Made by a program: the position numbers and the translations under genes
In this document: positions 23,163 through 60,933 of the stretch, piece after piece
Layout: every line of letters starts with the position of its first letter
Numbering within the stretch: the stretch's first letter is position 1
Notes under the pieces: model-generated
The model's input: the letters and a program-made list of their open reading frames with translations, nothing else
Databases searched by the model: none
What the model was told of the DNA's origin: nothing
Source: Arthrobacter terrae
Lineage (GTDB): Bacteria; Actinomycetota; Actinomycetes; Actinomycetales; Micrococcaceae
NCBI RefSeq assembly: GCF_015708085.1
Contig: NZ_JADNYM010000004.1
Location: forward strand, 62,001 to 126,000
DNA: 64,000 bases
Reading direction: 5' to 3'

Positions 23163-24905
23163 ATGCTGACAGGGAAGTACGACGGCGCCGCGACCCCACT
23201 TCCGCTGCTGACCCGCCAGCTGTCCCTGCTGGCAGTTCGTGTTCTCCGGCTTAGCCTGGGCAGCGTCATTGCCGTCGCGGTTATTGCAGTCGTCGAGGCG
23301 TATTGGATCGGCGTCCAATTCCGCAGGGCCACGGCCGAGGAGACGCCCCGGGCGGCTGGATGTTACGGTGCGGGGTATGTAGGAGCCACCGTCAGATTGG
23401 CTATGCTGGGCGATTCCAATGCCCTCGGAGTCGGCGCCTCGCGGCGCAGTCAGACCATACCCGCGCTGCTGGCCCGCGGCCTTTCCGCGGAGGCCGCACG
23501 TCCGGTGCTCCTGGACAATGTTGCGGTTTCGGGTGCCGAATCGAGGGACCTGGCCGGGCAGATCGGACTGCTGAGCGGGATACCGGCTGTGACAGTGATC
23601 CTGATCGGCGGCAACGACGTAATGCAGCTGCGTTCCATCCCGGCATCGGCCGCGCTGCTTGCCGGCGCGATCCGGCATCTGCAATCGCAGGGGGGTCAGG
23701 TGGTAGTAGGTACCTGTCCGGATATGGGGACCATTCAGGCGCTGGTGCCTCCGCTTCGCTTTATTGCCGGATTGTATAGCCGGGTCCTGGCCGTGGCGCA
23801 GACCTTCGTGGTCCTGCGGGTGGGCGGTCGGGCGGTTGCGATTGGCGACATGCTCGGGCGTCAGTTCCTGGAAAACCCGGGGCAAATGTTCGCGACAGAC
23901 CGTTTCCATTCCTCCCCGTTGGGCTACGCGCGTGCCGCCCGCCTGCTCCTGCCCAGCGTCTGTGCTGCCGCCGCACCCGTGACCGGCGTTCACCTGGCTG
24001 TCCCGCACCGTATTTATGCACCCACGAACAGGAAGTGGGTAACGGCGTTGGGCATGTGGATGGGACGACGGGCCTTGACCTCCGTCCGAAGTATGGACAC
24101 GGGCCGGGGGCGCGGTGCCGGACGGTCAGCTGTCGAACAGGCCCCGCACATCGTTGGCGGAGAGCGCGGTACTGAACATGGCGTCGTCGTCCATCACGGC
24201 GGAGAACAGCCGCGCCTTCTTCTCCTTGAGGGCCATCACCTTTTCCTCGATCGTATCCTTCGCTACCAGGCGGTAGACCATCACGTTCTTGGACTGGCCG
24301 ATCCGGTGCGTGCGGTCCACAGCCTGGTTCTCGGTCGCCGGGTTCCACCAGGGGTCCAGCAGGAAAACGTAGTCCGCCTCGGTCAGGTTCAGCCCAAAGC
24401 CACCTGCCTTGAGACTGATCAAAAACACCGGTGCGGTGCCGGATTTGAACCGGTCGATCACCTCACCGCGGCGCCGGGTCTTACCGTCCAGATAGGCGTA
24501 GGGGATGCCTGCGGCGTCGAGGCGTTCGGCGGCCTTGCCAAGGAAGGACGTAAACTGGCTGAAGATCAGTGCCCGGTGCCCCTCGGCAACAATGTCCTCG
24601 AGCTGTTCAAAGAGTGCATCAAGCTTGCTCGACGGGGCCGAGGCATACTTGGCGTCTACCAGCGAGGCATCCAGGCTCAGCATCCGCAAAGTGGTCAGGG
24701 ACCTGAAGATGGCAAACCGGTTCTTGTCCATATCATCGAGCATGCCCAGGACCTTCTGGCGTTCGCGCTGCAGATGGCGCTGGTAGATCACCCGGTGCCG
24801 CGGCGCCAGCTCGAGTTCCAGAACCTGTTCCTGTTTTGGCGGGAGATCCTTGGCCACCAGGTCTTTGGTGCGCCGCATGATCAACGGTCGGATCCGGCGC
24901 CGTAA
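23163..24905 (+). CDS. SGNH/GDSL-family hydrolase with runaway C-terminus
   Basis: Membrane-anchored esterase-like protein. After an N-terminal hydrophobic segment (VLRLSLGSVIAVAVIAVVEA) it has SGNH block I LGDSNALG (Ser about 85), block III IGGND (about 148) and block V DRFH (about 246). ATG 23163 has GAGG 6 nt upstream. Family proteins end near 24.0-24.1 kb, but this frame has no stop until 24905. Its last ~260 codons lie antisense to the broken helicase and resemble nothing. Stops exist in the +1 frame at 24040 and 24076, so a one-base indel or stop loss is likely. The functional protein probably ends by ~24.1 kb. Confidence 0.75.
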   Translation: MLTGKYDGAATPLPLLTRQLSLLAVRVLRLSLGSVIAVAVIAVVEAYWIGVQFRRATAEETPRAAGCYGAGYVGATVRLAMLGDSNALGVGASRRSQTIPALLARGLSAEAARPVLLDNVAVSGAESRDLAGQIGLLSGIPAVTVILIGGNDVMQLRSIPASAALLAGAIRHLQSQGGQVVVGTCPDMGTIQALVPPLRFIAGLYSRVLAVAQTFVVLRVGGRAVAIGDMLGRQFLENPGQMFATDRFHSSPLGYARAARLLLPSVCAAAAPVTGVHLAVPHRIYAPTNRKWVTALGMWMGRRALTSVRSMDTGRGRGAGRSAVEQAPHIVGGERGTEHGVVVHHGGEQPRLLLLEGHHLFLDRILRYQAVDHHVLGLADPVRAVHSLVLGRRVPPGVQQENVVRLGQVQPKATCLETDQKHRCGAGFEPVDHLTAAPGLTVQIGVGDACGVEAFGGLAKEGRKLAEDQCPVPLGNNVLELFKECIKLARRGRGILGVYQRGIQAQHPQSGQGPEDGKPVLVHIIEHAQDLLAFALQMALVDHPVPRRQLEFQNLFLFWREILGHQVFGAPHDQRSDPAP

Positions 24906-27672
24906 TTGCATCAACCGCAGCTTGTCGCCCTCCTTTTCCACAGTTTTCTGGTAATAATCCGCGAAATTCGTGGCCGTGGGGGAACAGTCCCGGTGCGGTG
25001 ATCGCGAACATTGACCAGAGCTCCATCAGGTTGTTTTCCATCGGCGTGCCGGTGATGGCGAGCTTGAACGGAGCCGGGAAGCGGCGGGCGTTCTGGCTGG
25101 ACTTGGCGGCGGGATTTTTGACAAACTGCGCCTCGTCAAGGACCAGGCCTGCCCAACTCTGCGCCGCGTATGCCTCGTAGTCCAGCCGGAAAAGCGTGTA
25201 GGAAACGACGACGACGTCGGCCCCGTTGGTGAGTGCGGCGGCGTCCGTTCCGGCGCGCCGGAGCGTGTCGGACACGGCGACTGTCCGCAGGCCGGGCGCG
25301 AATCGGGCGATTTCTGCGGCCCAGTTCGGTACCACCGATGTGGGGGCGACGACGAGGAACGGTTTGGGCGCCCCGATGCCGGACGACTGCGCCGCGGCCT
25401 TTGCATGGCAGAACAGCGCGATTGTCTGCAGGGTCTTGCCCAGTCCCATATCGTCGGCCAACACGCCCCCAGACCGTGATCAAACAGGAACGCAAGCCAG
25501 CTGAATCCTTCCTGCTGATAGGGGCGAAGCGAGGCGTTGATGCCGGTGGGCACGGGCACCGGCGCCATCTCGCCCAGCTGCAGCAGCCCCGAAACGCAGG
25601 CACGCCAGGATTCGGCCTGCACCGCGGTCGCTGCCAGTTCCTCCAGTTCGTCCCAGAGGCCTGCCTGATACCGGCTGATCTGCAGGCCGGAATCCTTCTC
25701 CTGCAGTGAGCGGGCTTCTTCGATGAGCTTGCGCAGCTGGACAAATTGAGGCTGGTCGAGGGCAAAGTAGTTCCCGTTGGCAAGCATCAGATGCTCCTCG
25801 CCGGCGGCCAGCGCCCGGAACAGCGTGTCGAAGGGAACATCGGTCCCCCCCAGGGTCACCGTGACGCCCAGATCGAACCAGTCGCCGTCATCGGTCCCTT
25901 TGGTGCTGATGTCGATCTGCGGTGCTTCGGTCAGCTCGGCGTAATCGGGCGCCTCCCCGACAATGTCCACCCGCACATGTTCCAAACCGGCCAGTTCCGG
26001 CAGGGCTGCGGCGGAGAACCGCGCGGCGTCCAGACCGGTCAGGGTCAATTCGCCGCTGGTCGCGGCCAGTCCCGTGACCGCGTCCGGCAGCTGCTGCAGC
26101 CACGCGGGGGAGAAGGGTGACAGCCGTTCCGCAACCCGCCTCAGCAGCGCGGATTCGAAGGCATCGTCCCTGTCACCGGGCCCGCTGCCGGCGTCCAGCA
26201 GCGGGCGCCGCTGTATACCGGCCCCAACGGTGTATTCCCAGTGCCAGTCCAGAGTGAGGGCACCGGGGCCCGTGGCTGCCTGGGGCTTGCGTCCACGCCG
26301 GGGTGCGGGCACCGCCTCGGGGATGTAGGCTGCGCGGAGGACGAGTAGCGGGGGGACCAACTGGGGAAATTCGACCGAACCGTTGCTGGAGACGATCCGA
26401 AGGCTGCGATGAAGCTTAGGGTAGTAGTTTTGCAGGAAGGCGTCCCGGCCGGCCCCGGAATCTGCAGCGGAGTGCGTGTCCCGATCAACGGCCGCAGTAT
26501 CTCACCGATTGGATCCGCCGCCGGCGCCAGGTGAATTGTGGACTGGTCCGGTCCTGCCAGGGCCTTGTCCGGATCCCACCAGAAGAGGCCGTGACCCTGC
26601 TGGCCAATGAGTCCCAAAGCGGACGGATTCAGCGGTTCTCCGCCGGCTTCGGCGTGTGGAAGCAACTGCCGGGCGTCATCTTCTGACCGCACGTCCAGCG
26701 AAACGGAAACCGGGTCATGAATGACGACGACGCTTCCGGCCTTGGTGCCGACGAACTCGACGCCGGCAGCGGCACCCTGGGCGAGCAGGCCCCAGAGCAG
26801 CGGACTGTTGAACTGATCCAGATAGAGCCAAGCATCCCGCGCCGCGTGCGCCCTTCCGGAATTGTGCACCGCCACAAAGGTCCGCATCCATTGAACGTGG
26901 ACCTGGTTGCAGTCCGAGATTGACGTGGTGCCGTAGCCGTAGCCGTAGCTGTAGTGTCCCGGAAGGCGTCCCAGCGCAGATTGCCGACAAGCCATTTGCC
27001 CTTGGCGTTTTGTTTCACCGGCCGGACTGTCAGCAGGACTTTCTTCTCGTCCTGGCCGTCCTGCATGAGGGCGTTACGTGTCCGCTGCTGGTCGAACTGC
27101 TGATTTGCCACTTCGCGCAGCTCGAACTGGACGCCCAGGGGAATGGGGACCTCGGGGGCGGGACGCCCGGCGCGGTAGCCGCCTGTGAACCCCGGCTGCC
27201 GGGCCGGTGTGAGCAGTGAATCCAGCTGCTTGGTCCACAGCGGATCGGGCTCGGGGGCAGGCCTGGGCGGTGGTGTCAGGACCCGCGGCGGCATACGAGC
27301 GGGTTCGGCGAAAAGCGGCTCCATGCTGGTCCCCTCCGGCGCGGCGCGCGTGAATCCCGCATTGCTGGTCAGCAGCAACGCGGCAACATGTTTGCAGGCG
27401 TATCCCATCGGGCAGGAGCACGATCCGCTGCTGGGATGAAGATCGGCATCCGGACGTGGACTCGTTTTGGCTGCGGAAAACAATACCGCGGTCAGGTATG
27501 GCGAAGCCCGGTGTCCCTGTACCTTGCCGGCCAGCTTCAGGGTGGCCCCGTCCCATGTGACGTTGGAGACGGACCGCTTCCGGGCGTAGGCCCTGCCCCG
27601 TGTGTACGAGGTAGTGCCGACTAATTCGCAGACCGTCGCGGTGTCGAGCAGCGGTGGATACGAAGAGGGCAT
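24126..27672 (-). pseudogene. SWIM/SNF2 helicase paralogue broken by four frameshifts
   Basis: Full-length homologue of the helicase at 14.5-18 kb. It has SWIM site SCSCPMGYACKH, DDMGLGKTLQ, LDEAQF, GGFGLNLTEADYVF and DRTHRIGQ, but they are spread over different frames. Breaks: (1) around 26940-26965, next to a GTAGCC hexamer run; (2) near 26455; (3) near 25468, where one G is missing from a G run before TGTTGGCC; (4) near 24975, where one C is extra in CCCCC. Correcting these gives one continuous protein with no other stops. Neighbouring genes of over 1000 codons are intact, so general sequencing error is unlikely and real decay is favoured, though read checking is needed. Confidence 0.85.
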
Positions 27673-43824: not shown

Positions 43825-43964
43825 CCCGGCGACCTGCGTTAGTTCCCGATATCAGCATCATGGCGGTCGAACTATCCGCCGAAACGCGCGAGGACGGCCG
43901 CGTCCTGCTACACCTTGACGGATCAGCGCAATGTGCACACACTGTACATACAAAGGAGAATGCG

Positions 43965-44261
43965 ATGAGTACCAGTTCCCTCCATCCCAAGCCCGTACGA
44001 AGCCAGCGCATCAACGTCAGGGCTACGCCGCGCCAGGAACAGCTGCTGCGCCGGGCCGCTGAAGCTACAGACCGCTCCATGACGGATTTCATCTTGGAAA
44101 GTGCCAGCGTGGAGGCGGAGAGAATACTGGCCGATCGCCTGTGGTTCGTCGCAGACGAGCCGCAATGGGCCGAGTTCAAGCGGCTGCTGGAACTTCCTTT
44201 GACATCCACCGCCAAACTGGCCAAGCTGGCGCGCCGCCCAAGCCCGTTCCAGGGAGAATGA
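43965..44261 (+). CDS. tacA: DUF1778 antitoxin (TacA-like, ribbon-helix-helix)
   Basis: A 98-residue antitoxin. The N-terminal RHH DNA-binding region reads SQRINVRATPRQEQLLRRAA and RSMTDFILESA; the C-terminal tail should bind and block the GNAT toxin. ATG 43965 follows AAAGGAGAA. A TGTGCACA palindrome (43932-43939) upstream could be its operator. Its stop overlaps the toxin ATG (ATGA). The gene looks intact. Confidence 0.9.
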   Translation: MSTSSLHPKPVRSQRINVRATPRQEQLLRRAAEATDRSMTDFILESASVEAERILADRLWFVADEPQWAEFKRLLELPLTSTAKLAKLARRPSPFQGE

Positions 44262-44783
44262 GCCACGCATCGCCTGACGCGCCTCGGAAGCTGCTGCGCA
44301 CCGATAACCGTGACGCCTTCGCTTGGGGGGCTGCGGAACTGGACGAGTGGCTTCGCAGGTACGCCTTCCAGAATCAGCGCGCGAACAGCGCAGTCACCTA
44401 TGTAGCCTGCGACGGGAAGTCCGTGGTCGGCTACTACGCGATAGCCGTCGGGGCGGTTGCAAAGCAGGGAGCTCCGCCGGCAATAACTAAAGGTGGCCCC
44501 TCGGATATACCCTGCATTCTTCTGGCCCGGCTAGCAGTGGACAAGCGGTATCAAGGCACCGGGCTCGGGGCGGGACTCCTTCAGGATGCATTGAAGCGCG
44601 CGGTGTTGGTGCGCGAAAGCATCGGGGGGAATGGCTGTGCTTATCCATGCTCGCGATGCCGCCACCTGGTCATTTCACGACCGTTACGTGGACGCACATC
44701 CTTCCCCGTTGGATGACCTGCAGCTCATGATTCCCATGAAGGCTCTGCGCGCCGAGTTCGCTGGTTTCCTGCCAGGCCGCTGA
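44258..44783 (+). pseudogene. tacT: GNAT acetyltransferase toxin (TacT-like), frameshifted
   Basis: TacT-type toxins acetylate aminoacyl-tRNA and stop translation. The first ~125 codons are normal: LLRTDNRDAFAWGAAELDEWL and the acetyl-CoA loop RYQGTGLGAGLLQDAL. In the GGGGGG run near 44623-44630 the frame slips. Removing one G restores SIGGMAVLIHARDAA and continues to LDDLQLMIPMKAL, with a stop at 44781-44783. As written, the product ends at 44716 with an unrelated tail and lacks the last strands. This is either a true inactivating indel or a homopolymer read error. Confidence 0.8.
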
Positions 44784-44948: not shown

Positions 44949-45050
44949 TTCGAAGCAGTCGACGACGACTTCTCCCCCGGACGTGTCGGCGCGGCAGGTC
45001 GCTCCGCCCGATCTCCGCCGCCCCACCACCAGGCTGAGCGCCGCCGCCAT
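44949..45050 (+). pseudogene. Scrap of a PLD-helicase (DUF3427) gene 5' region
   Basis: Two patches match the intact gene at 51.7 kb: TTCGAAGCAGTCGACGACGA versus its TTCGAAAAGGTCGACGACGA, and ATCTCCGCCGCCCCACCACC shared exactly. About 110 bp between them in the intact gene are missing. The rest of 44784-45170 holds nothing else I can support. Confidence 0.65.
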
Positions 45051-45170
45051 GGCTTTTCGCCCTCAGCAAGGAAAATGCAGCTTCAGCAGTTTCATCCCGA
45101 CATACTCTTAGCCGAAGGCTACGGAGCGGGCGCCAGCGGTTTCGGGGTTATGTACGTTCTGTACAGTGAA

Positions 45171-45186: not shown

Positions 45187-45453
45187 ATGAGTGAGATGAG
45201 CGTGACGGACGCACGGAGTCGCTTGTCCGAAGCGGTTGATACAGCCCGGGTCAAGCATGAACCGGTTTACCTGTTGCGCCACGGCCGACGGGTCGCTGCT
45301 TTGATAGATGCAGAGGACCTCGCCAACCTAATTGAGGCTGCCGAGGATCTGGACGATCTGAAAGCCGCAAACGCAGCCCGGACGGAGATGGCTGAAAGCG
45401 GCCAAGGCCCCATCCCTTGGGAGGAAGTTAAGGCAGAACTCGGCCTCACATGA
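45187..45453 (+). CDS. Phd/YefM-family antitoxin
   Basis: An 88-residue antitoxin. The N-terminal DNA-binding domain reads SVTDARSRLSEAVDTA and PVYLLRHGRRVAALI; the acidic C-terminal half (DLANLIEAAEDLDDLKAA) would wrap the toxin. An internal ATG at 45196 is a second possible start. It overlaps the toxin ATG by 4 bp. The gene looks intact although its toxin partner is frameshifted. Confidence 0.9.
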   Translation: MSEMSVTDARSRLSEAVDTARVKHEPVYLLRHGRRVAALIDAEDLANLIEAAEDLDDLKAANAARTEMAESGQGPIPWEEVKAELGLT

Positions 45454-45712
45454 CTTACGCCGTGCAGATCGCACCGGCAGCCGCACGCCAATTGCGCAAG
45501 CTGCCTCCTGAGTCTCGCCGGCGAATTCAAGCAGCGATCGAGTTGCTCGCTGTTACGCCACGCCCTCGGGGACGAAAAAGCTCGCCGGGAACACGGGAGA
45601 TTGGCGTATCAGGACCGGAGATTACCGGGTCGTCTATGAAATTCATGACGATCGGCTTGTTGTTCTGGTCATTGCTGTGGGCCACCGACGCGGGATTTAC
45701 CAGTCGATTTAA
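45450..45712 (+). pseudogene. RelE/ParE-family toxin, frameshifted
   Basis: The first ~40 codons read YAVQIAPAAARQLRKLPPE and RRRIQAAIELL, then the frame breaks at CTCGGGGACG (about 45567-45576). Adding one G restores KLAGNTGDWRIRTGDYRVVY and VVLVIAVGHRRGIYQSI with a stop at 45710-45712. That restored end is the normal RelE catalytic C-terminus (GDYRVVY, GHRR). As written the frame runs on into the 658-bp repeat and ends at 45848. Confidence 0.85.
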
Positions 45713-45739
45713 AGGTCAATCTCGTGCTCGACTGCCTCG

Positions 45740-46372
45740 TCAGATGGCGGGCGAATTCGGGCCCTTCCTAAGCTTGTGGTTTCGAAACCCGTGGTGCTTG
45801 TCCCCGAGTCCTGGCACGTGGACGTTTGCGAATGGAGCCACACGGTAGGGATCATAAAGTCCGGTTTTTAGCTCGCCAGGAAGACGATCAGCAAAACCAC
45901 GGATCATCTTGGCCTCAATGGCGTGGACATCGCCATCGGCCGGAGCGTAGTGGACGAATAGGGACGGCAGGGCCCGAAGCGCCTTGAGCCACCACCCGCC
46001 ACTGTGCGGAGACCTCGCGCCGATAAGTGTCGAGTGGTACTGCTGGATGCGCTTTGACAGAGACGTTCCCGCGAGCCCAATGTACAGAACCGGCTCGTCG
46101 GCCAGCCAGAATTGTTGAAGACGCGCCTCAAATGCAAGTGCGGTGGCGGCCTGAGCATCTATTGAAAAGTCACCGCATATCTTCACGAGGTCTTCGTAAG
46201 CCTGATTGTCAAAGGGCAATTGCGGGATGCCACTGGCCGTGGAATGAATGTCGGACGTTGTCGAGACCACGTAGACTCCCGGGCGATCTTCGGGCACGCG
46301 CTCACCCCAGTGGACACATCCTGCGGGCCTAAGCGAGGCATCGCCGAATACTTCATCAACGGAAACTGGCAT
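45740..46372 (-). CDS. Truncated copy of the GIY-YIG-like nuclease gene
   Basis: A 210-residue product identical to the first 210 residues of the gene at 50636-51619. It carries the full GIY-YIG-like domain (GVYVVST, LYIGLAG, and a Glu in VHAIEAKMI). The copy lacks the C-terminal ~117 residues and ends with a TGA created at the repeat junction. The -10 box TAGACT is retained, so it may be expressed. It lies inside the 658-bp direct repeat. Confidence 0.7.
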   Translation of the reverse strand: MPVSVDEVFGDASLRPAGCVHWGERVPEDRPGVYVVSTTSDIHSTASGIPQLPFDNQAYEDLVKICGDFSIDAQAATALAFEARLQQFWLADEPVLYIGLAGTSLSKRIQQYHSTLIGARSPHSGGWWLKALRALPSLFVHYAPADGDVHAIEAKMIRGFADRLPGELKTGLYDPYRVAPFANVHVPGLGDKHHGFRNHKLRKGPNSPAI

Positions 46373-46400
46373 GTGGCGAGTCTAAAGGAAACAAGCCGCA
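45743..46400. repeat. 658-bp direct repeat, copy 1
   Basis: Identical by eye to 50990-51647 (offset 5247) over the segments I compared, with identical translation. Similarity weakens but continues to about 46420. It starts 30 bp after the relE toxin fragment. No terminal inverted repeats or transposase are seen. Confidence 0.92.
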
Positions 46401-50059: not shown

Positions 50060-50640
50060 TCGGCAGCATGGCGGTTTCTTGGCGGGTGTGCCCGGAGTCC
50101 TCGATGCCTTCGGCGATGTGGGCTAGGTGTTCGGGGATGTCGCGGCCCTTTTTGTGCATGGCGGTGGCCCAGAGGCGTCCGGTCCGGTAGGAGGAGCGCA
50201 CCAGCGGACGGGACATGATGCCCAGGGAGCGCATAGCGGAAGGCCGATCGGATGCGCTTGAAGATCCCGGCACCGTCTCCACATTGTGGGCGAAAAGCTC
50301 CGGGGCGGAATCGTAGATCACGGCGATATGCTCGGGCTTGCCGGAGAAGTCAGGGATGAGCAACTCGACGCCCGTGTTCGGGTTCAGCTCGTGGATCTTG
50401 CACACCGGCTCGGCGTAGGGCCAGACGCCCTCATCGGCCAGGTCGCCGGGGGCATTCGGATCCGCCGATGAGGAACGTCGCCTCCCGGTCCTCCCATCAC
50501 TCAAAGATGCAGCTGGCCTCCTCTCATACAGTGTGCAGGCCCTGGCCCTTGACCAGGTTCTGGAGCTGGCGCTGGAATGCTGGCGACGGCGGCAACGAGG
50601 CCTTCTGCCGTCGGGGCCAGCACCCGTGTCGGTCGTTACC
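50060..50640 (-). pseudogene. lipA: Degraded lipoyl synthase gene (lipA remnant)
   Basis: Minus-strand pieces in order: [53 protein letters not shown]; then [48 protein letters not shown]; then [38 protein letters not shown]. All match lipoyl synthase. The radical-SAM CxxxCxxC core and most of the barrel are deleted. Two cysteines of the auxiliary cluster are now TGA. No function is possible. An intact lipA must be elsewhere. Confidence 0.9.
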
Positions 50641-51619
50641 CGATGATGCGGTAACCGGTGCCATCGGATTCGATATGCACGGGCATATCGGTCGTACCCA
50701 GCTGGCGCATCGTGGCAACTCCGAGACCAAGAAGTCCGGAACGACTCCCTTTTGGGTTCCACGAAACTGTTCGGGATAGATTATGGACGGTTACCAGTAG
50801 CATGCTGGGCTCTGGCGGAAACAAGTACTTGGAACCCGCTGGTATCCGAAGGAAGCTCCTCGAGCGGTCCTTCTCGGTTATGGGCTGGGAAGGAACGCTG
50901 CCGCTATGTCCGGAAGGGGGAGGAATTACGGGCGCTGCAAGCGACTTCACAGATTTTTCGACGGGGGAGCCAGGATCTAAAGGTCCGGCGATGGCGGGCG
51001 AATTCGGGCCCTTCCTAAGCTTGTGGTTTCGAAACCCGTGGTGCTTGTCCCCGAGTCCTGGCACGTGGACGTTTGCGAATGGAGCCACACGGTAGGGATC
51101 ATAAAGTCCGGTTTTTAGCTCGCCAGGAAGACGATCAGCAAAACCACGGATCATCTTGGCCTCAATGGCGTGGACATCGCCATCGGCCGGAGCGTAGTGG
51201 ACGAATAGGGACGGCAGGGCCCGAAGCGCCTTGAGCCACCACCCGCCACTGTGCGGAGACCTCGCGCCGATAAGTGTCGAGTGGTACTGCTGGATGCGCT
51301 TTGACAGAGACGTTCCCGCGAGCCCAATGTACAGAACCGGCTCGTCGGCCAGCCAGAATTGTTGAAGACGCGCCTCAAATGCAAGTGCGGTGGCGGCCTG
51401 AGCATCTATTGAAAAGTCACCGCATATCTTCACGAGGTCTTCGTAAGCCTGATTGTCAAAGGGCAATTGCGGGATGCCACTGGCCGTGGAATGAATGTCG
51501 GACGTTGTCGAGACCACGTAGACTCCCGGGCGATCTTCGGGCACGCGCTCACCCCAGTGGACACATCCTGCGGGCCTAAGCGAGGCATCGCCGAATACTT
51601 CATCAACGGAAACTGGCAT
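50636..51619 (-). CDS. GIY-YIG-like nuclease domain protein, full length
   Basis: A 327-residue protein not assignable to a named family. Residues ~30-175 resemble a GIY-YIG nuclease: GVYVVST (GIY-like), [18 protein letters not shown] (YIG plus the usual arginine after it) and a likely metal-binding Glu in [17 protein letters not shown]. The C-terminal ~110 residues include [20 protein letters not shown] and may be a separate domain. ATG 51619 lies 6 nt after TAGACT, so it looks leaderless. It diverges from the PLD-helicase gene 89 bp away, suggesting a functional link. Its 5' part is duplicated at 45.7 kb. Confidence 0.72.
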
Positions 51620-51647
51620 GTGGCGAGTCTAAAGGAAACAAGCCGCA
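50990..51647. repeat. 658-bp direct repeat, copy 2
   Basis: Second copy of 45743-46400. It contains the first 210 codons of the GIY-YIG-like gene plus 28 bp upstream. Because the gene continues intact beyond the repeat here, this is probably the parent copy. Confidence 0.92.
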
Positions 51648-51708
51648 AACTGCTCTTGCCTTCGCGTCGTCACGCTTCCACATCGTCGTTCTCCATTAGC
51701 CTGGCCAA

Positions 51709-54700
51709 GTGAACACTTTCGTTGGGGGAACAAACGAGGACCGAATCGCTGATCCGCTGGTGCAGGGCCTCTACGAGTCGCTTCACACCGACGGTCTGGC
51801 TGCTCGGTTGGCCGCCCAGCCGGATCTCACTTCCACATTCGAAAAGGTCGACGACGACACCTCCCCGGAGGTCCTGGCACGCCACGTCAGCGAACTGGCA
51901 CGGGTCGCGCTTGCACAAGCGAAACCGGAACACAGGGTCGCCCTGGCAAACAATCTCCTGCAGGCGCTGCAGCATCCGGACACCATCCACCCGGGTCCGC
52001 AGGAACTGAGATCCCTCGCCGCTCCGGCGGGCCTGCGTCGCCGTAATCTCCGCCGCCCCACCACCAGGCTCAGCGACGCCGCCCTGCTCACCAACGGCAA
52101 GGATGATCCGAACCTCGCCGCGGAGATCCGCGCCGAAATGGCGTCGGCCAGCCGGGTTGATCTGCTCTGCGCCTTCATCCGCTGGACAGGGCTTCGTTTG
52201 CTGGAACCGGCACTGGAGGAGCTGCGGGGGAGGGGCATCCGCCTTCGGGTTCTGACCAGCACCTATATGGGTGCCACTGAACGCCGGGCCATCGATGATC
52301 TGGTGACCAAGTACGGCGCCGAGGTCAGGATCAACTATGAAACCCACGCCACGCGCCTGCACGCCAAGGCATGGCTCTTCCGCCGCAGCACCGGTTTCGA
52401 TACGGCCTACGTGGGCAGTTCAAACCTCAGCGCCGCGGCCATGCTGGACGGCCTCGAATGGAACGTCCGGCTGTCCTCGGTGGGCACGGCGCGATTGCTG
52501 CAGAAATTTGAAATCACCTTTGACAGCTATTGGGAGCAGCGGGCCTTTCAGCCCTACGATCCGGGGAACGACGGCGACAAGCTGGACGCCGCGCTCGCCC
52601 GCAACGGCGGCCGAGCAGCCAGCCGGCCGGACACTTTCACGGGTCTGGAGGTGCAGCCTTACCTTCATCAGCAGGAGATGCTCGAGGACCTTGAATCGGC
52701 GCGCGCAATCCACGGCCGGCACCGCAATCTGCTAGTCGCCGCGACCGGCACCGGCAAGACAGTTGTCGCCGCACTGGATTACCAGCGGCTGTGCGCAGCA
52801 GCCGGCCGGGACCTGACGCTGCTCTTCGTCGCGCATCGGCAGGAGATCCTCAAGCAATCCCTGGCCACCTACCGGAACGTCCTACAGAGTGGCTCATTCG
52901 GTGAGCTCTACGTTGGTGAGCACAAGCCCAAGGATTGGAAGCACGTCTTCGCCAGCGTGCAGTCCCTGGCTGCCCTCGGGATCGGGACCATCGAACCGGG
53001 CCAGTTCGACGTCGTCGTGATTGACGAATTCCACCATGCGCAGGCGCCCACCTACCGGGCCATTCTGGAGCACCTGCAGCCACAGGAACTGCTCGGTCTG
53101 ACGGCCACTCCGGAGCGCGGCGACGGGATCAACGTCGCGGACCAGTTCTTCAGCGGCCGGACCGCCAGCGAGCTGCGCCTGTGGGATGCGCTGGAGGCGG
53201 ATCTGCTGGTCCCGTTCCACTATTTTGGGGTGGCCGACGACGTCGACCTGAGCCAGGTGGAGTGGAAGCGCGGCAACTATGACACCGGGCAGCTGGACCG
53301 GCTCTACACCGGCAATGATGCCCGCGCGGCCAAGGTCATCAAAGAGCTCCGCGACAAGGTCACCAGCACCGATGGCATGCGTGCGCTCGGTTTCTGCGTG
53401 TCCGTGCAGCACACGCACTACATGGCCGAGGTCTTCAACGCCGCCGGTATCGCTGCCGTCGCCGTGTCCGGGCAGACGCCCGACGACGAACGTGCGGCCG
53501 CGCTGTCGCGGCTCAGGAGCCGCGAACTGAACGTGATCTTCGCCGTCGACCTCTTCAACGAAGGTCTCGATCTGCCCGAGGTGGATACGATCATGCTGCT
53601 GCGGCCTACCCAAAGTGCCACCGTCTTCCTGCAGCAGCTGGGCCGCGGGTTGCGCCGGGCCAAGGACAAGTCTGTGCTTACCGTGCTCGACTACATCGGC
53701 CAGCAGCGCCGTGAGTTCCGCTTCGACGCCAAGTACCGCGCCTTGACCGGGCTCAGCAGGAAGGCCTTGGAAAAAGCCGTCATCGACGAATTCCCGTTCC
53801 TGCCGTCCGGCTCGCAAATTGTGCTGGACCGGGTGGCTCAACAGATAGTGCTGGCGAATATCAAAGCCCAGCTGAGGTTCAACCGGGCCCAGCTCGTTAC
53901 CGACGTGCGCTCGCATGCCGAACTGCTGCTCGAAGACTTCCTGCGCGAATCGGGCAATTCGCTGCAGGACGTGTACAGGAAGACCGGCGATTCCTGGACC
54001 GCGCTGTTGCGCGACGCCGGTCTGCTCGAGGACGGCCGGATGGCCAGTGGCGATCAGCTTGCCTACATCGACCGTCCGGTACCGGTTGCGGCTGGGCCCG
54101 AACGTTCCATTGCCGAAGAACTTCTTGTTCTCAAGCGCATGACCCAATTGCTCTGTATTGACGATCCCGAACGGGCCGATGCTTATACCCGGCTCACCTC
54201 GCCCGGCGCTCAACGCTACGACGACCTTGGACTGCGCGAACAGACCTTTGCCCGGATGCTCTTCTTCGCGCTCTGGCCCGAAGCCGGCGGCTTCACCTCC
54301 TACGACGAAGGCATTGATTATCTTCGCCAGTTCCCGCATGCCTGCGCCGAAATCCAGCAGCTGGCAGCGCTGGGTCTCAAGCGCTCGCGGTATGCGCCCA
54401 AGGGCTTGGGGCATGGACTTCAACACATTCCGCTCTACTCCCACGCCACCTATCGCCGTGAAGAGATCCTCGCAGCCCTCGGATTTTTGTCCGTGCATGG
54501 CCGGAAAGCCCGGCACCGCGAGGGCGTTGCCTGGAGCGCGGAGACCAAGACGGACGCGTTCTTCGTGACCCTGGAGAAGGACGTCAAGGACCGCGCCGCG
54601 TCCATCATGTACAAGGACTACGCGCTCAGTGAGGACCTGTTCCACTGGGAATCACAGAACTCCACCTCGCCCGAAAGTCCTGTTGGGCAGCGGTACCTGG

Positions 54701-54903
54701 ACCACAAGGCATTCGGTTCCCAGATCCTGTTCTTTACCCGGGCCCGCGAAAACGACGACACTGGCATGACCATGCCGTACACCTGCCTCGGGCAGGTCGA
54801 CTATGTGCAGCACTCGGGATCAAAGCCAATCGCCATCACCTGGAAGCTGCAGCGGCCGATGCCTGCGGACGTGTTTGTATCGGCGAGTGCGGTGGCCCAA
54901 TGA
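51709..54903 (+). CDS. PLD nuclease-SF2 helicase-DUF3427 protein
   Basis: Single protein of 1064 residues with defence-type architecture. The N-terminal phospholipase D-like domain has THATRLHAKAWLF (HxK, about 215-222) and AYVGSSNLS. The SF2 helicase has Walker A ATGTGKT (about 345), DEAD-like DEFHHA (about 437) and QLGRGLRRAKDK. The C-terminal DUF3427 includes SPVGQRYLDHKAFGSQILFF. GTG 51709 lies 6 nt after TAGCCT, so the mRNA may be leaderless. It overlaps the zinc-finger gene by 4 bp. A role in anti-phage restriction is likely but unproven. Confidence 0.88.
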   Translation: MNTFVGGTNEDRIADPLVQGLYESLHTDGLAARLAAQPDLTSTFEKVDDDTSPEVLARHVSELARVALAQAKPEHRVALANNLLQALQHPDTIHPGPQELRSLAAPAGLRRRNLRRPTTRLSDAALLTNGKDDPNLAAEIRAEMASASRVDLLCAFIRWTGLRLLEPALEELRGRGIRLRVLTSTYMGATERRAIDDLVTKYGAEVRINYETHATRLHAKAWLFRRSTGFDTAYVGSSNLSAAAMLDGLEWNVRLSSVGTARLLQKFEITFDSYWEQRAFQPYDPGNDGDKLDAALARNGGRAASRPDTFTGLEVQPYLHQQEMLEDLESARAIHGRHRNLLVAATGTGKTVVAALDYQRLCAAAGRDLTLLFVAHRQEILKQSLATYRNVLQSGSFGELYVGEHKPKDWKHVFASVQSLAALGIGTIEPGQFDVVVIDEFHHAQAPTYRAILEHLQPQELLGLTATPERGDGINVADQFFSGRTASELRLWDALEADLLVPFHYFGVADDVDLSQVEWKRGNYDTGQLDRLYTGNDARAAKVIKELRDKVTSTDGMRALGFCVSVQHTHYMAEVFNAAGIAAVAVSGQTPDDERAAALSRLRSRELNVIFAVDLFNEGLDLPEVDTIMLLRPTQSATVFLQQLGRGLRRAKDKSVLTVLDYIGQQRREFRFDAKYRALTGLSRKALEKAVIDEFPFLPSGSQIVLDRVAQQIVLANIKAQLRFNRAQLVTDVRSHAELLLEDFLRESGNSLQDVYRKTGDSWTALLRDAGLLEDGRMASGDQLAYIDRPVPVAAGPERSIAEELLVLKRMTQLLCIDDPERADAYTRLTSPGAQRYDDLGLREQTFARMLFFALWPEAGGFTSYDEGIDYLRQFPHACAEIQQLAALGLKRSRYAPKGLGHGLQHIPLYSHATYRREEILAALGFLSVHGRKARHREGVAWSAETKTDAFFVTLEKDVKDRAASIMYKDYALSEDLFHWESQNSTSPESPVGQRYLDHKAFGSQILFFTRARENDDTGMTMPYTCLGQVDYVQHSGSKPIAITWKLQRPMPADVFVSASAVAQ

Positions 54904-55196
54904 CCCATACAACTTTCACGTGTCCCATTTGTGGCGCGGACTTCGACGAGAAGAAACTCGCAAATGTGCTACCGCAACACCAGGGGAACGACCTTGGCGA
55001 CTGTGCGCTGTCCGGGATAGGCATCGAAAGAATTCGAGGGGCCCTTGGCGGCCGCGCTCGACCCAAAGAGGTCGTCGTGGATGATCTGACGGCCGTGGGC
55101 CGGTGTCCGGTTTGCGGAAAAACCAAGGAGCTCGCCCACCATTCTAGGCGGGTGGCTAACCATATGTTGCCCAATGGGACTCTGTCTGGGCAGTAA
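54900..55196 (+). CDS. Small two-site zinc-finger protein coupled to the PLD-helicase
   Basis: A 98-residue protein with two apparent zinc sites: CPIC (Cys8, Cys11) with His27 and Cys35, and CPVC (Cys69, Cys72) with His80/81 and His88. ATG overlaps the helicase stop (ATGA), so translation is coupled and the two proteins probably work together. No named family is recognised. It could be an HNH-like remnant or a DNA-binding subunit; there is no clear HNH catalytic core. Function unknown. Confidence 0.7.
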   Translation: MTHTTFTCPICGADFDEKKLANVLPQHQGNDLGDCALSGIGIERIRGALGGRARPKEVVVDDLTAVGRCPVCGKTKELAHHSRRVANHMLPNGTLSGQ

Positions 55197-55429
55197 GTGG
55201 GAAGCCGAGAACATACGCGTCCGTTAGCCTCGTCAACCTCCCTACGGCACCGTGAACCGGGCTCGGACAGCTGGCAAATACGGCGTGATGGTACGGGTAG
55301 TCCGGGTAGGTGGTACCGCTGGTTTCAGGGACCCGGTACTGGCCAGAAAGCGTCGTCGTGGGTTTCTGGCCAGTGCCCGGTTGTGACCGTCACCGGTCGG
55401 GGTGGTGGTGTTCCGCCGGGGTGTTGTTG

Positions 55430-55710
55430 CTATTCCCAGTGGTCTTTGGCGTCGCGGGCTTCTTGGGCGTGCAGGCGGCGCATGTCGATGACGCCGACGT
55501 TTATCCTGCGGTCCCAGGTGGCGAGTCGGTTCACGATTGAATCGGCAGCATTTTTTCCGGCAGGCTCTCGATCCAGTAGCCTGGTCCGGATTGGCTGGCG
55601 ATCATGGTTGGCAGGCGTTGGTCGCGGTTGACCAGGACGGTGAACAGGTCGTTCGCTGCTGTCTCATCGATGCTGATGGTGAGGAAGGCATCTAATGTGA
55701 AGCAAAAAAT
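55430..55710 (-). pseudogene. IstB/DnaC-like ATPase, C-terminal fragment
   Basis: Minus strand reads ISIDETAANDLFTVLVNRDQ then RLPTMIASQSGPGYWIESLP, slips by one base in AAAAAA (about 55548-55553), and continues AADSIVNRLATWDRRINVG to DAKDHWE and a stop at 55430. This is the C-terminal part of the IS21-helper type ATPase. Walker motifs and the N-terminal half are missing. A fossil of a mobile element. Confidence 0.75.
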
Positions 55711-56568: not shown

Positions 56569-56700
56569 GTGGATGCGTTCGAAACTCGCTACCAACTGAT
56601 TGACGGCTACGGTCCTTCAAGGAGGGCTTTGTCGACGGCGAGGACGGACGCATCAGGGACGGTCTCCGGCATCCAGCGAAGGAGCAGACCTCATGAGTGA
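56569..56700 (+). CDS. Possible 43-codon ORF overlapping mcrB start
   Basis: GTG 56569 with GGGGG 7 nt upstream encodes MDAFETRYQLIDGYGPSRRA and a basic, Ser/Arg-rich rest, ending TGA inside the mcrB start region. It may be a translational leader or the stump of a lost gene. No family is recognised. Confidence 0.3.
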   Translation: MDAFETRYQLIDGYGPSRRALSTARTDASGTVSGIQRRSRPHE

Positions 56701-59700
56701 GACGCAGTGGAAAGAGTTCATGAGGTACGCCGCCAGGTTCGCCGGCGCCGTCGATCTGGATGGTGAAGAACGGAATTACAAACTGGTACTGGCCGAACGG
56801 CTGAAGTCCGCCCGTCAGCTGTTCCTGGACCACAACCCGGACTGGTTCGAGCGGCTCCGTAAGGATCTTTCGTCGACTAATTTGGTTAACCAGTACTTCA
56901 TGATGAAGTTCGTCGATCTGGGCAGGAGCCGCCCGGACGATTTGTGGCGTGTCCTTGAAGGGCTCTGGGGTGGGGATGCGGACGCGGTGCGGCTCGATGC
57001 CTTTGTTGAACAGTTGCGGCCGTTCAATCCTGCCCAGTTCTCTGTCGGCGGCATCGTTGGCCTCGGATCACTGCTGCTCATGTCTGAGAATCCGTGCAGC
57101 TTTCCGCCATACCGTGCGAGGGCGGTCAAGAAGTTCCTCAAACTGGTTGGCTGGGATGATCGCGGAGCAAACGGAACCCCTTCGCGCCGCTACGAATTGC
57201 TGCTCGAAGCCATGGACGAACTGCTGCGGCTCGCTCCCTTCCACGGAATCGAGTTGCGGGACCGCCTGGGCGCTCAAGGATTGATGTGGCAGGTGCTGAA
57301 CGCAGAACCACCGGAGGATTGGCCGATGAATGATCAAATTGAGTTTCGGGTGTGGAGGGGGGAGACGCCGTCGACGGCTGCGGAATCGAATCCGGCGAGT
57401 AGGCCGTTCGGGCCCAACCCGGAGTTGGAAGCCGCGGCGCGCGCCATACTCGATGCCGGGCTGCTGTCGCTGTCGTCCCCGTTGGGCGGCGGCGAGACGA
57501 CGTGGACCTCCGAGAACGCCGCGGAGATACTACATCGGGTGCTGGACAACTACGACGGCGGCGAGGGCAGTTTTCTGAGTAAGCTGGAAAAGCAACTCCA
57601 CGGGGCATCTCCGGCGGTCATCCGGCTCACCGGTGAGCTCATCGCCCTGCAATCCTTGCCTCTGGTCAATATCACTCCATCGACCAAAAAAGCACGCGTC
57701 GAGCGGGTTCTGAGTTGGCTGGACGAAGATCAGGAAATTCCGGAGGTCATTGCTTCCGGACTGGCTGCTCGCGGGGCATTCAACGGCGGCACGGGGTTCA
57801 ATATGAACCAATGGCGGCATCTGCGCTGGCTGGCCAAGTTCGTGGCCCACACACGGGAGTCAGAAGAAGCAGCTCATCAGGCCTTGCGCACGCCCGAAGC
57901 CTTCATCGACCTCACGGCCTCAACACCGGACGACGTTCCCGCCATTCGGTACACCGTGGAGTACCTTGCCTGGCCGTCCTATTGCGAACCGGTGGTCAAC
58001 AAGGAGCATCGCCGGCGGATCCGCAACGCTTTCGCGCAGGAAGTAGGCGGGGCTAACGGGGACAGCGAACAGGAAATCGCCCGGGATCTTAATTCCATCC
58101 GCACGGCACAGGAGGCCGGACTTGGGCACGACGTTGAGTGGTACGACGAGCCCTTCTTCAGTCAATGGTCCGGTGCGAGGCCCAGCGGCGTGCGGGCATG
58201 GCTCGTCCGGCAGAATCAGGGTGGCATTGCCATGCTGGATTCATGGCTGGACGGTGAATTTATCTCGACCCGGGCCCAGCATCTTGGTTCGCCCGCCCCC
58301 GGGAGCGGCTACGACGAAGTTCAGGCCGCCGTCAATGGTGGTTACCAGCACATTGACTATTCTGAGCGAAAGGCCCGGGCACAGGAATATTTCCGGTTCC
58401 TGAGTCAGATGAAACCCGATGATTTTATTGTGACCGCCCATGGCGAAGACCTCTACTTGGGTGTCGTGACCGGGAGCGCTGAATATGTAGAGGTCGAATC
58501 TTCGCGTCTACGCCGCGACGTCCTTTGGCGCAAGCAGCCCATCAGGAACCTTGACCTCCCCGCACCTTTGCCGCGCCTGCTCGAAGAGCAGGGTACGGTG
58601 GTGGACCTCACCGACGCTCTGCCAACCATTAGAGGCTGGTTCGCCCAGGAACTCGAAGACGCGGACCTTCCAATCGTCGTCGTGCCACCCCTGCCGCAGC
58701 CCGCCGTCGTACCTATCTTGAGGCCAGCCTCCGACGAGCTGGCCTCTCGACTGCATCTAAATCGCGAAGATATCCAAGAGGTCATCGACCTGCTTCAAAC
58801 ACGTAGCCAAATTGTTTTCTACGGGCCACCGGGAACGGGGAAAACCTACCTTGCCGGCAAAATCGCAAGGTTCTTGGCTGGTGAAGAACACGGCGACCAC
58901 GTCAAGACTGTCCAGTTCCACCCGTCCTATGCGTACGAGGACTTCTTCGAGGGCTACCGCCCGGCTGAGACAGAGGGAGGCGCCGTCGGGTTCAGTCTGG
59001 AGCCAGGGCCCCTGCGTCAGATTGCCGGTGAGGCATCGGCCGAGGGGAACAGGGACAAGCCGTACTTCCTCATCATCGACGAGATGAACCGCGGCAACCT
59101 CGCAAAGGTTTTTGGGGAGCTGTACTTCCTGCTGGAGTACAGGGATCAGAGCATCAGCCTGCAGTACAACCCCACGAAAACCTTTGTGCTCCCACCTAAC
59201 CTTTTCATCATCGGCACCATGAACACGTCCGACCGGTCCATCGCCATGGTGGACGCGGCCATCCGTCGGCGCTTCGCCTTCGTCGAGCTCCACCCGGAGG
59301 ACGGCATGATTTCCGGACTCCTCGAACGCTACCTCGCAGCCAACCACAAGCCGATGCTGCGAGCCCAGCTGCTGAACGCCCTAAACGCGGAGATCGAGGC
59401 CACCAACCGCGACCTAATGATCGGGCCTTCCTACTTCATGAAGGATCATGCCGAGACCGATCGCGGGCTGGAGCAGATCTGGAAGTACGAGCTGCTGCCG
59501 TTGCTCGAGGAGCAGTACTTTGGACGGTTGAGCCGTCAGAAAGTGCATGAAAAGTTTGGCCTGGGCGCCATGCGGAAGACCGTTGAGAGGCAGCTCGCCG
59601 CCGTCGACTTGATTGCCGCAGGGTCGGCCGACGTCGAATTTGGCGATGGGCTCAATGCGACGAAAATGAATCCGACGGACGCTGAGGACGCGTCCTTCTG

Positions 59701-59701
59701 A
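56693..59701 (+). CDS. mcrB: McrB-like AAA+ GTPase with EVE/PUA-like reader domain
   Basis: Motor subunit of a modification-dependent restriction system, 1002 residues. A long N-terminal region (1-490) of unknown fold is followed by an EVE/PUA-like domain (about 498-620: AWLVRQNQGGIAMLDSW, DFIVTAHGEDLYLGVVTG) that may flip out modified bases. The C-terminal AAA+ module (about 690-990) has Walker A GPPGTGKTY, VQFHPSYAYEDFFEGYRP, Walker B LIIDEMNRGN and sensor TMNTSDRSIAMVD with RRRFAF. The MNxxD sensor is McrB-specific. ATG 56693 has AAGGAG. Ends TGATG into mcrC. Confidence 0.9.
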   Translation: MSETQWKEFMRYAARFAGAVDLDGEERNYKLVLAERLKSARQLFLDHNPDWFERLRKDLSSTNLVNQYFMMKFVDLGRSRPDDLWRVLEGLWGGDADAVRLDAFVEQLRPFNPAQFSVGGIVGLGSLLLMSENPCSFPPYRARAVKKFLKLVGWDDRGANGTPSRRYELLLEAMDELLRLAPFHGIELRDRLGAQGLMWQVLNAEPPEDWPMNDQIEFRVWRGETPSTAAESNPASRPFGPNPELEAAARAILDAGLLSLSSPLGGGETTWTSENAAEILHRVLDNYDGGEGSFLSKLEKQLHGASPAVIRLTGELIALQSLPLVNITPSTKKARVERVLSWLDEDQEIPEVIASGLAARGAFNGGTGFNMNQWRHLRWLAKFVAHTRESEEAAHQALRTPEAFIDLTASTPDDVPAIRYTVEYLAWPSYCEPVVNKEHRRRIRNAFAQEVGGANGDSEQEIARDLNSIRTAQEAGLGHDVEWYDEPFFSQWSGARPSGVRAWLVRQNQGGIAMLDSWLDGEFISTRAQHLGSPAPGSGYDEVQAAVNGGYQHIDYSERKARAQEYFRFLSQMKPDDFIVTAHGEDLYLGVVTGSAEYVEVESSRLRRDVLWRKQPIRNLDLPAPLPRLLEEQGTVVDLTDALPTIRGWFAQELEDADLPIVVVPPLPQPAVVPILRPASDELASRLHLNREDIQEVIDLLQTRSQIVFYGPPGTGKTYLAGKIARFLAGEEHGDHVKTVQFHPSYAYEDFFEGYRPAETEGGAVGFSLEPGPLRQIAGEASAEGNRDKPYFLIIDEMNRGNLAKVFGELYFLLEYRDQSISLQYNPTKTFVLPPNLFIIGTMNTSDRSIAMVDAAIRRRFAFVELHPEDGMISGLLERYLAANHKPMLRAQLLNALNAEIEATNRDLMIGPSYFMKDHAETDRGLEQIWKYELLPLLEEQYFGRLSRQKVHEKFGLGAMRKTVERQLAAVDLIAAGSADVEFGDGLNATKMNPTDAEDASF

Positions 59702-60933
59702 TGCTGCGGCATCTGGTTCTTGACGAACTTCAATCCGACTCGGTCACGGTGGAGCTGGACGAGGAAACGATGGCCAGTCTGAGGGACACCGGACTGGTAT
59801 CCGTCGCTCCGGCTCGCGGTGGCCGTTGGGTGATACTGCCCTGCGGCCCGGTAGGCGCGGTTCAGGTCGGTGAACTTCTGGTCGAGGTGAAACCCAAAGC
59901 CAAAGTTGGGCTCAGCCGATTGCTGTTCCTGCTCGGCTACGCAAGAAATCCTGGTTTCCGGCCGGACGATGTGACAGGCCTGGAGGACAAGGACCTCTTC
60001 TCGGCACTGGCCGAGTCATTGGTGCGTCAGGCCGAACGGGCCTTTAGCCAAGGAGTCCTCAACGGCTATGTCTCCGTGGATGACGCACTGAGAACTGTCC
60101 GCGGACGGATCCGGGTCGGGGATCAGATGACCCGGCGCCCCGGGATGCTGATCCCGTTAGAGGTCTCCTACGACGACTTCACTGTGGACATCCCTGAGAA
60201 CCGGATCCTCCGTGGTGCGATCCGACTGATGCTGCATCTCCCACGGCTATCTGGGGATCTGCAGGCGCGGCTGGGTCATCTCGATGCCAAGCTCGACGGC
60301 GTCGCACTGCTCCGTCCGGGGAGGGCCCGGCCAGTCTGGCGGGAGACTCGGCTGAACGACCGCTACGTCCCCGCCTTGCGCCTGGCGGAAATCATCTTGC
60401 AGAACATGTCCGCCGAAGCCGGGCTGGGGAGGCAGACGGTCACTTCATTCGTCGTCAACATGGCAACGGTATTCGAGGACTTTGTCACGACCGCGCTAAC
60501 GGAGGCACTGTCCAAGTATCCCGGACAGACGATGGCACAGTATGAAACCTATCTGGATGAGGAGGACGGACGCCCTAATGCTAAGCGCGTACAGATGTAC
60601 GTCGATGTTGTTCACGAAATTGAGCGATTGCCGGCGCTGATATTTGACGCCAAATACAAAGCCGCATCATTCAGCGGGTATCCGAACGCAGATCACTATC
60701 AGATGCTCGCATACTGCACGGCGTTGAGGCTTCCCGTGGCGTGGCTTGTGTATGCGGGTTCCGGTCCCTCGAGGACGAGGCGGATCCGCAACTCGGAAGT
60801 ATCCATCGTTGAGTTTCCGATTGACGTTTCCCAGACGCCGGAGATGCTGTTGGTGCGGGTTCAGCGGCTTGCTGACTCAGCGTTGAGATTCAGGGTAGGT
60901 TCGGCGTTAGCGGAACCGGTCTTAATGGACTGA
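59701..60933 (+). CDS. mcrC: McrC-like restriction nuclease subunit
   Basis: Nuclease partner of McrB, 410 residues. Family landmarks are LLFLLGYARNPGF, ESLVRQAERAFSQGVLNGY and the PD-(D/E)XK segment LPALIFDAKYKAA (D-x-K about residue 314-316). ATG overlaps the mcrB stop by one base (TGATG), typical for mcrBC. Expected to cut DNA carrying modified cytosines or other modified bases read by the McrB partner. Confidence 0.93.
   Translation: MLRHLVLDELQSDSVTVELDEETMASLRDTGLVSVAPARGGRWVILPCGPVGAVQVGELLVEVKPKAKVGLSRLLFLLGYARNPGFRPDDVTGLEDKDLFSALAESLVRQAERAFSQGVLNGYVSVDDALRTVRGRIRVGDQMTRRPGMLIPLEVSYDDFTVDIPENRILRGAIRLMLHLPRLSGDLQARLGHLDAKLDGVALLRPGRARPVWRETRLNDRYVPALRLAEIILQNMSAEAGLGRQTVTSFVVNMATVFEDFVTTALTEALSKYPGQTMAQYETYLDEEDGRPNAKRVQMYVDVVHEIERLPALIFDAKYKAASFSGYPNADHYQMLAYCTALRLPVAWLVYAGSGPSRTRRIRNSEVSIVEFPIDVSQTPEMLLVRVQRLADSALRFRVGSALAEPVLMD

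Follow-up and report, generated by a model that had tools for sequence, protein, structure and literature searches.

We analysed a stretch of 64,000 nucleotides of Arthrobacter terrae (assembly GCF_015708085.1, contig NZ_JADNYM010000004.1, positions 62,001 to 126,000 of the forward strand; hereafter the window). It lies within a contig of 203,831 bases, in a genome of 4.43 Mb labelled G000 below; the genomes compared include five of its genus. A candidate nuclease gene, encoding GIY-YIG and B3-type domains (GIY–B3), diverges there from the gene of a large helicase, which is followed by a small open reading frame (ORF) with zinc-finger motifs. We favour, with a probability of about 0.6, the reading that the locus represents a type IV restriction island in which two independent nucleases are linked by place and not by an obligate function, and in which the zinc-finger ORF is incidental. 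The original prediction, made from the sequence of the window, had taken the three genes to form one restriction-like system with a zinc-finger adaptor. Its account of the layout agrees with the coordinates: three ORFs, a gap of 89 bp between the divergent genes, and an ATGA overlap between the helicase stop and the zinc-finger start (54900-54903). The features are as follows.

50636-51619, minus strand: putative GIY-YIG–B3 nuclease gene, 327 residues
51035-51619, minus strand: putative GIY-YIG catalytic domain, approximately residues 1-195, boundary placed by eye, motifs GVY...YIG...R...E...PFAN
50639-50902, minus strand: predicted B3-type DNA-binding domain, approximately residues 240-327, from AlphaFold2 and Foldseek
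51620-51708, 89 bp: divergent intergenic gap, TAGNCT hexamers 6 nt before both start codons
51709-54903, plus strand: putative SauUSI-type helicase gene, 1064 residues
52207-52533, plus strand: PLD nuclease domain of the helicase, residues 167-275, HxK motif LHAKAWLF
54361-54876, plus strand: DUF3427 domain of the helicase, residues 885-1056, corresponding to the target recognition domain of SauUSI
54900-55196, plus strand: zinc-finger ORF, 98 residues, two CxxC pairs
56600-60933, plus strand: McrB-like and McrC genes, a second type IV restriction system

Sequence similarity places the helicase among SauUSI-type enzymes

By its sequence, the helicase is an ATP-dependent type IV (modification-dependent) restriction enzyme of the SauUSI type. 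This is an already known kind, and we rejected the idea that the protein represents a new one. Pfam confirms that a PLD nuclease, an SF2 motor and DUF3427 are combined in one protein, in the order PLDc_2 (residues 167-275), ResIII (315-470), Helicase_C (545-649), and DUF3427 (885-1056). Nearly the whole PADLOC profile mREase_IV (PDLC03659) is matched (1116.6 bits, profile positions 16-942 of 945), with some 115 N-terminal residues of the helicase falling outside the matched stretch. The top match in the PDB is 7clg (286 bits), an entry entitled 'Putative helicase' that we take to be SauUSI. The alignment with this protein scores 266 bits over residues 126-675, which cover the nuclease and the motor, and is followed by a second, weak stretch over residues 949-1036, in the target recognition domain (17.5 bits, i-Evalue 0.0069). 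Both proteins have a PLD domain with HxK, an SF2 motor and a C-terminal DUF3427, all in one chain; the window helicase differs by about 95 extra N-terminal residues and by a substitution in the PLD motif that we weigh below.

According to excerpts of the published descriptions, SauUSI consists of a PLD nuclease, an SF2 translocase, a coupler and an SRA-fold reader of S-m5C-N-G-S, where m5C is 5-methylcytosine, and it shreds DNA (PMC7913695); its C-terminal domain is DUF3427 and the single polypeptide suffices (PMC3874153). By analogy, the DUF3427 of the window helicase (an SRA fold in SauUSI) would read sites in incoming DNA that carry 5-methyl- or 5-hydroxymethyl-cytosine, its SF2 motor would translocate using ATP, and its PLD nuclease, as a dimer, would shred the DNA, which amounts to ATP-dependent cutting of modified DNA. 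The defence affiliation of the locus is supported; McrB-like and McrC genes adjoin the block, as had been noticed from the sequence.

We found helicase relatives in 52 of the 149 genomes of the taxonomic family (E <= 1e-60, G000 counted), in 19 of 246 genomes of the phylum (E <= 1e-100), and in 23 plasmid records. The closest one, in genome G056, is 93% identical and stands directly beside ppsR; no GIY match was found in that genome. The helicase gene appears to be maintained, because the changes between G000 and G056 are distributed 53/37/183 over codon positions 1/2/3.

We read the surroundings of 30 helicase loci of the family, eight larger regions (one genome repeated) and 18 of the 19 loci of the phylum. 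These loci, together with the 19th phylum locus and those of G028 and G098, were scanned with profiles of GIY–B3 and of PDC-S14, a PADLOC entry with GIY-YIG and DUF4357 domains. After removal of repeats, the scan covered 56 actinobacterial genomes; 38 of the 52 family genomes with a helicase were read or scanned, most of their loci with flanks of 1.5 kb and some cut by contig ends. GIY–B3 stands beside the helicase in only two of the 56 genomes, G000 and, in decayed form, G098, and the other neighbours vary. PDC-S14 matches at G011 and G041, two genomes of another genus in which its gene lies directly upstream of the SauUSI-type gene and on the same strand (loci L079:5625-9723 and L080:5079-9228), and a remnant of 58 residues is left in G065. 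In G088, of the same genus as G011, this place is taken by the Gabija genes GajA and GajB (locus L082). In the eight of the 23 plasmid records that were opened, whose gene table is incomplete, no GIY-YIG or zinc-finger gene was found within 3 kb of the helicase; the nearest plasmid relative, from an Arthrobacter, is without annotation and lies outside these eight. In summary, the helicase usually stands without a GIY–B3 partner, at sites with a turnover of other defence genes.

A predicted GIY-YIG–B3 nuclease

The protein encoded by the divergent gene seems to have a nuclease architecture that is new within a known kind, rare and unnamed, as judged from motifs and models. The assignment of its N-terminal domain to GIY-YIG draws on motifs and on a profile match. 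Residues Y34, Y97, R108, E153, and N183, which we take to be the GIY-YIG catalytic residues, are invariant and in order in all five aligned full-length members, and hhalign gives a 98.2% match of the domain to another group, itself GIY-YIG-like by motif. The Pfam GIY-YIG profile matches neither the window protein nor five relatives; in L068, which is more distant, GIY_YIG_2 matches below the threshold (E 0.071). The GIY-YIG-like nuclease proposed at first is thus backed by motifs and by similarity to a GIY-YIG-like group, but is beyond the reach of Pfam.

The C-terminal ~90 residues are predicted to adopt a B3 DNA-binding fold. Modelled alone with AlphaFold2, residues 232-327 reach a predicted local distance difference test (pLDDT) score of 83.8, and the first 21 ranks of the Foldseek search of the PDB with this model are all B3 proteins (probability 0.85-1.00, template modelling score up to 0.68), including At1g16640, LEC2, TEM1, several auxin response factors, VRN1, LlaJI.R1, NGA1, VAL1, BfiI-C, and UbaLAI. 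Rank 22 is an unrelated protein. For many of these entries the B3 label is our own assumption, the titles giving only the name of the protein. The top three matches of the full-length model are VRN1, LlaJI.R1, and LEC2, with E of about 0.1. Scans of Pfam, PADLOC, NCBIfam, and PHROG with the protein gave no match, and PDB sequence searches with the protein or its alignments gave nothing beyond four chance-level matches (E 0.5-1.3).

If these assignments are correct, the protein would bind a short site in double-stranded DNA through its B3 domain and cut or nick there with its GIY-YIG domain. The enzyme may need modified DNA, like its neighbours, because no methyltransferase was found among the ten window proteins tested around its gene.

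B3-fold DNA readers are shared with the restriction enzymes BfiI, the R subunit of NgoAVII/CglI, UbaLAI, and LlaJI.R1, and in BfiI and CglI the reader is joined to the nuclease. EcoRII is another B3-domain restriction enzyme. Besides PLD restriction nucleases, among them BfiI and CglI, B3 readers are also known on PD-(D/E)XK ones, the class of the nucleases of EcoRII and UbaLAI; the putative pairing with GIY-YIG is the new part. Eco29kI, Cfr42I, and Hpy188I belong to the GIY-YIG catalytic class (part of PMC4081073), whereas the window protein spaces GVY and YIG by about 60 residues and carries a B3 reader as a separate domain, and the ten neighbours mentioned above include no methyltransferase. 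PDC-S14 is also a GIY-YIG nuclease beside the same kind of helicase, but it has another C-terminal domain and is encoded on the helicase strand, whereas the window gene is divergent.

In the open PMC literature, we found no paper on DUF3427 together with GIY-YIG, and a search for GIY-YIG, 'B3 domain' and 'restriction endonuclease' returned nothing beyond PMC5737866, in whose accessible portion GIY-YIG appears only in a reference. In the corresponding portion of PMC4081073, 'B3-like' is tied only to BfiI.

Distribution of the GIY–B3 family and shuffling of its modules

By sequence searches, the GIY–B3 family is rare and scattered. A GIY-domain match occurs in three of the 149 genomes of the taxonomic family (G000, G109 and, in partial form, G098), against the 52 with helicase relatives, which supports the independence of the two genes. 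At E <= 1e-5, the GIY family is found in 8 of 396 genomes of the phylum, three of them with short partial matches, and in 6 of 340 genomes of the class, four of them with such matches. A scan of a named genome collection, outside which the window's own genome may lie, gave three GIY–B3 loci. Nothing useful was found in viral contigs, plasmids or phages.

Below we consider eight GIY loci: G000, G098, Arthrobacter sp. ES3-54, a Zhihengliuella metagenome-assembled genome (MAG; G109), G711, G467, G627, and G538. Left outside this set are a second copy in the window (copy A, described below), C-terminal-only matches (G020, G037, G038, G084, G104, G120, G134), weak matches (G029, G135), and short partial GIY-like matches (G204, G297, G384, G419, G525, G563, G639, G644, G1013, G1026, G1109). 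The full-length proteins are 40% (ES3-54), 42% (Zhihengliuella MAG), 33% (G711), and 33% (G467) identical to that of the window. The gene is split into two frames in G627, is reduced to the GIY part in G538 and copy A, and in G098 lacks the C-terminal part as well as an internal segment.

Such broken and shortened copies, the identical partial second copy in the window, and the integrase-like ORFs seen by eye near the G467, G627, and G711 genes would fit an orphan or selfish nuclease carried on mobile DNA, without a role in defence. We consider this improbable: the catalytic motifs are kept among full-length members that have diverged to 33-42% identity with the window protein, and defence genes adjoin at least four of the eight loci (G000, ES3-54, Zhihengliuella MAG, G538).

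The B3 unit is also found, by sequence, fused to DUF6308 in G020 (L060:9497-10642) and as short ORFs of 103-137 residues in five genomes. In G038, a stand-alone B3-like gene ends a cluster of SNF2 helicase, EcoRII-N, GHKL ATPase (MzaB-like), and HNH genes, and the opposite strand carries a C5 methylase (L062:3278-9993). This shuffling among fusions and stand-alone ORFs suggests that the B3 unit is a DNA-reading module. DUF6308, on which we found no paper in the open PMC literature, is also fused to a GIY-like domain (L068:670-1803; Pfam was run on L068 only).

Other genes stand near members of the family. In ES3-54 (L076:3070-12596), an ORF with a SIR2 domain (ThsA-like) begins 8 bases beyond the end of GIY–B3, with a ZacC-like gene on the upstream side. 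Two lineages have NYN-domain genes close to GIY–B3 (L099:8626-9396, L076:6707-7303), the one in G627 directly upstream.

Linkage of the GIY and helicase genes

The two-gene part of the original proposal has some basis. Immediately downstream of ppsA, G098 (Paenarthrobacter sp. PH39-S1) has the B3-less GIY gene diverging, as in the window, from the first 57 codons of a helicase gene. The neighbour of the full-length GIY gene in ES3-54 is the end of a helicase gene (residues 988-1056, split over two frames), which lies on the other strand, the remains expected of a pair that was once divergent. Since G098 holds remnants of both genes and ES3-54 a helicase remnant beside GIY, the divergent pair is older than the window genome; the position of PDC-S14 upstream of the helicase in two genomes points in the same direction, but the unity of three genes does not follow. 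In the Zhihengliuella MAG and in G538, a helicase of the SNF2 type lies downstream of GIY on the same strand. PADLOC assigns the former to HKD+Snf2, but its Pfam matches include no PLD domain; the latter has PLDc_2 by Pfam, and its PADLOC matches to DrmD (3e-34) and HKD+Snf2 (2.2e-33) are close. The two are 27% identical to each other, and their relationship to the window helicase is confined to the motor. At G467, G627 and G711, neither kind of helicase is found as a neighbour, the G711 contig being only 8.5 kb long.

These arrangements raise the alternative that GIY–B3 is an accessory nuclease of defence helicases, in which the helicase translocates and GIY–B3 adds site-specific cutting, in the way that R.CglI (PLD–B3) works with H.CglI (part of PMC5737866). 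A helicase or its remnant is indeed present at five of the eight GIY loci (SauUSI-type in G000, G098, and ES3-54, SNF2-type in the Zhihengliuella MAG and G538), a hint of a preference for helicase neighbours, and PDC-S14 is a different GIY-YIG gene placed just upstream of a SauUSI-type gene. Yet the hint is weakened by the involvement of two helicase families that share only the motor, one of the SNF2-type proteins lacking a PLD domain by Pfam, by the three loci without a helicase next door, by the independent losses of partners in G056 and ES3-54, and by the missing base rate, given that defence genes cluster anyway; in the genus of PDC-S14, moreover, Gabija genes occupy the same spot in G088. 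We therefore find the accessory role doubtful. A wider version, with GIY-YIG–B3 as the partner nuclease of at least two helicase families (SauUSI- and SNF2-type) in dual-nuclease systems, where B3 picks the site and the helicase translocates, seems slightly more doubtful still.

Several points nevertheless weigh against two nucleases linked by place only. Within the genus, the pairing of GIY with the helicase is ancestral, and a second genus has a helicase remnant beside GIY, which is more linkage than unrelated neighbours need, and a defence helicase gene or remnant adjoins GIY in four of seven lineages when the two congeners among the five loci are counted once. The domain assignments have their own weaknesses: the full-length model has a mean pLDDT of 50.8, mostly below 60 in residues 1-230, and the GIY-YIG fold lacks independent support; the Foldseek E-values for B3 are weak, if consistent (2.6e-3 to 0.27 over ranks 1-21); and the helicase keeps H and K of the H-x-K-x4-E motif of SauUSI, with R in place of E. 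On balance, we still prefer two independent nucleases, with GIY–B3 genes that would come and go singly at such islands, often beside defence helicases.

The zinc-finger ORF and the three-gene proposal

The case for one dedicated three-gene restriction system lies in the divergent layout, the ATGA overlap, and the matching promoter-like hexamers. The latter were correctly described: TAGACT-N6-ATG and TAGCCT-N6-GTG each place a -10-like hexamer exactly 6 nt from one of the divergent starts. The pattern TAN3T-N6-RTG occurs nine times in the window, both strands summed, so that finding it at both starts seems more than a coincidence. The arrangement fits leaderless actinobacterial promoters; a sigma-70 scan of 51500-55600 found no promoter.

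Comparative data speak against such a system. Zinc-finger-like sequence is present in two of the 149 family genomes, and all three genes occur together only in G000. The copy in G056 has one extra base and a two-base loss that break the frame. The G000/G056 changes in this ORF fall 14/9/16 over the codon positions and, with only 39 changes and therefore little power, suggest no clear codon constraint, unlike those in the adjacent helicase gene. These three lines of evidence indicate that the zinc-finger gene is not a conserved component. A search of 198 genomes of the order gave 11 matches at E <= 0.01, G000 counted; four of the other ten, all weak, were inspected and judged to be chance, three having no CxxC pairs and the fourth (L122) one pair, but its ORF runs antisense to a longer, probable gene. 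The plasmid search with the protein gave nothing useful. We thus rejected the zinc-finger adaptor, and the ORF is probably incidental or decaying sequence that overlaps the end of the helicase gene. As for the other components, GIY-family genes also occur without a helicase next door, G056 has the helicase without GIY, and SauUSI works as a single polypeptide, according to the part of its description cited above (PMC3874153). The neighbourhoods across actinobacteria, on which the prediction was to be judged, thus went against it, and we consider a dedicated three-gene system very improbable.

A 658-bp repeat around ppsA and ppsR

The first inspection overlooked that part of the GIY gene is present twice in the window, with a piece of the helicase gene nearby.

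45743-46400, minus strand: second copy of the putative GIY-YIG part (copy A), a 210-residue ORF without B3
45011-45051, plus strand: helicase-gene-like fragment, 93% identical to 52046-52086

Positions 45743-46400 equal 50990-51647 without mismatch, forming a direct repeat of 658 bp (99.7% identity over 677) whose copies flank ppsA and ppsR on both sides. G098 has the same left junction as the first copy (92.6% identity), so this copy is older than its exact identity would suggest. The start of the GIY/helicase pair is also present, in other partial copies, at the ppsA-ppsR place of G098 and G056. A Campbell-type integration of ppsA-ppsR was rejected as the origin of the repeat, since one and the same copy misses both ends. 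The simplest reading is that an older partial copy underwent gene conversion, with a residual chance that the repeat is an assembly artefact.

The first GIY copy is adjoined by a gene pair encoding a TacA-like antitoxin and a GNAT protein (43947-44716) and by a Phd/RelE-like pair, identified by eye and seemingly damaged (45190-45740). Elsewhere in the window, 14555-17974 and 24138-27672 are related (70% identity over 1.9 kb, 14564-16423 against 24138-25976); the former is one ORF of 1139 residues and its counterpart appears as separate ORFs.

Implications

The locus illustrates that promoter symmetry and gene overlap can hint at a 'system' that comparative genomics fails to support. If the domain assignments hold, GIY-YIG–B3 would put a B3 reader on another catalytic class of nuclease, possibly in a modification-dependent enzyme.

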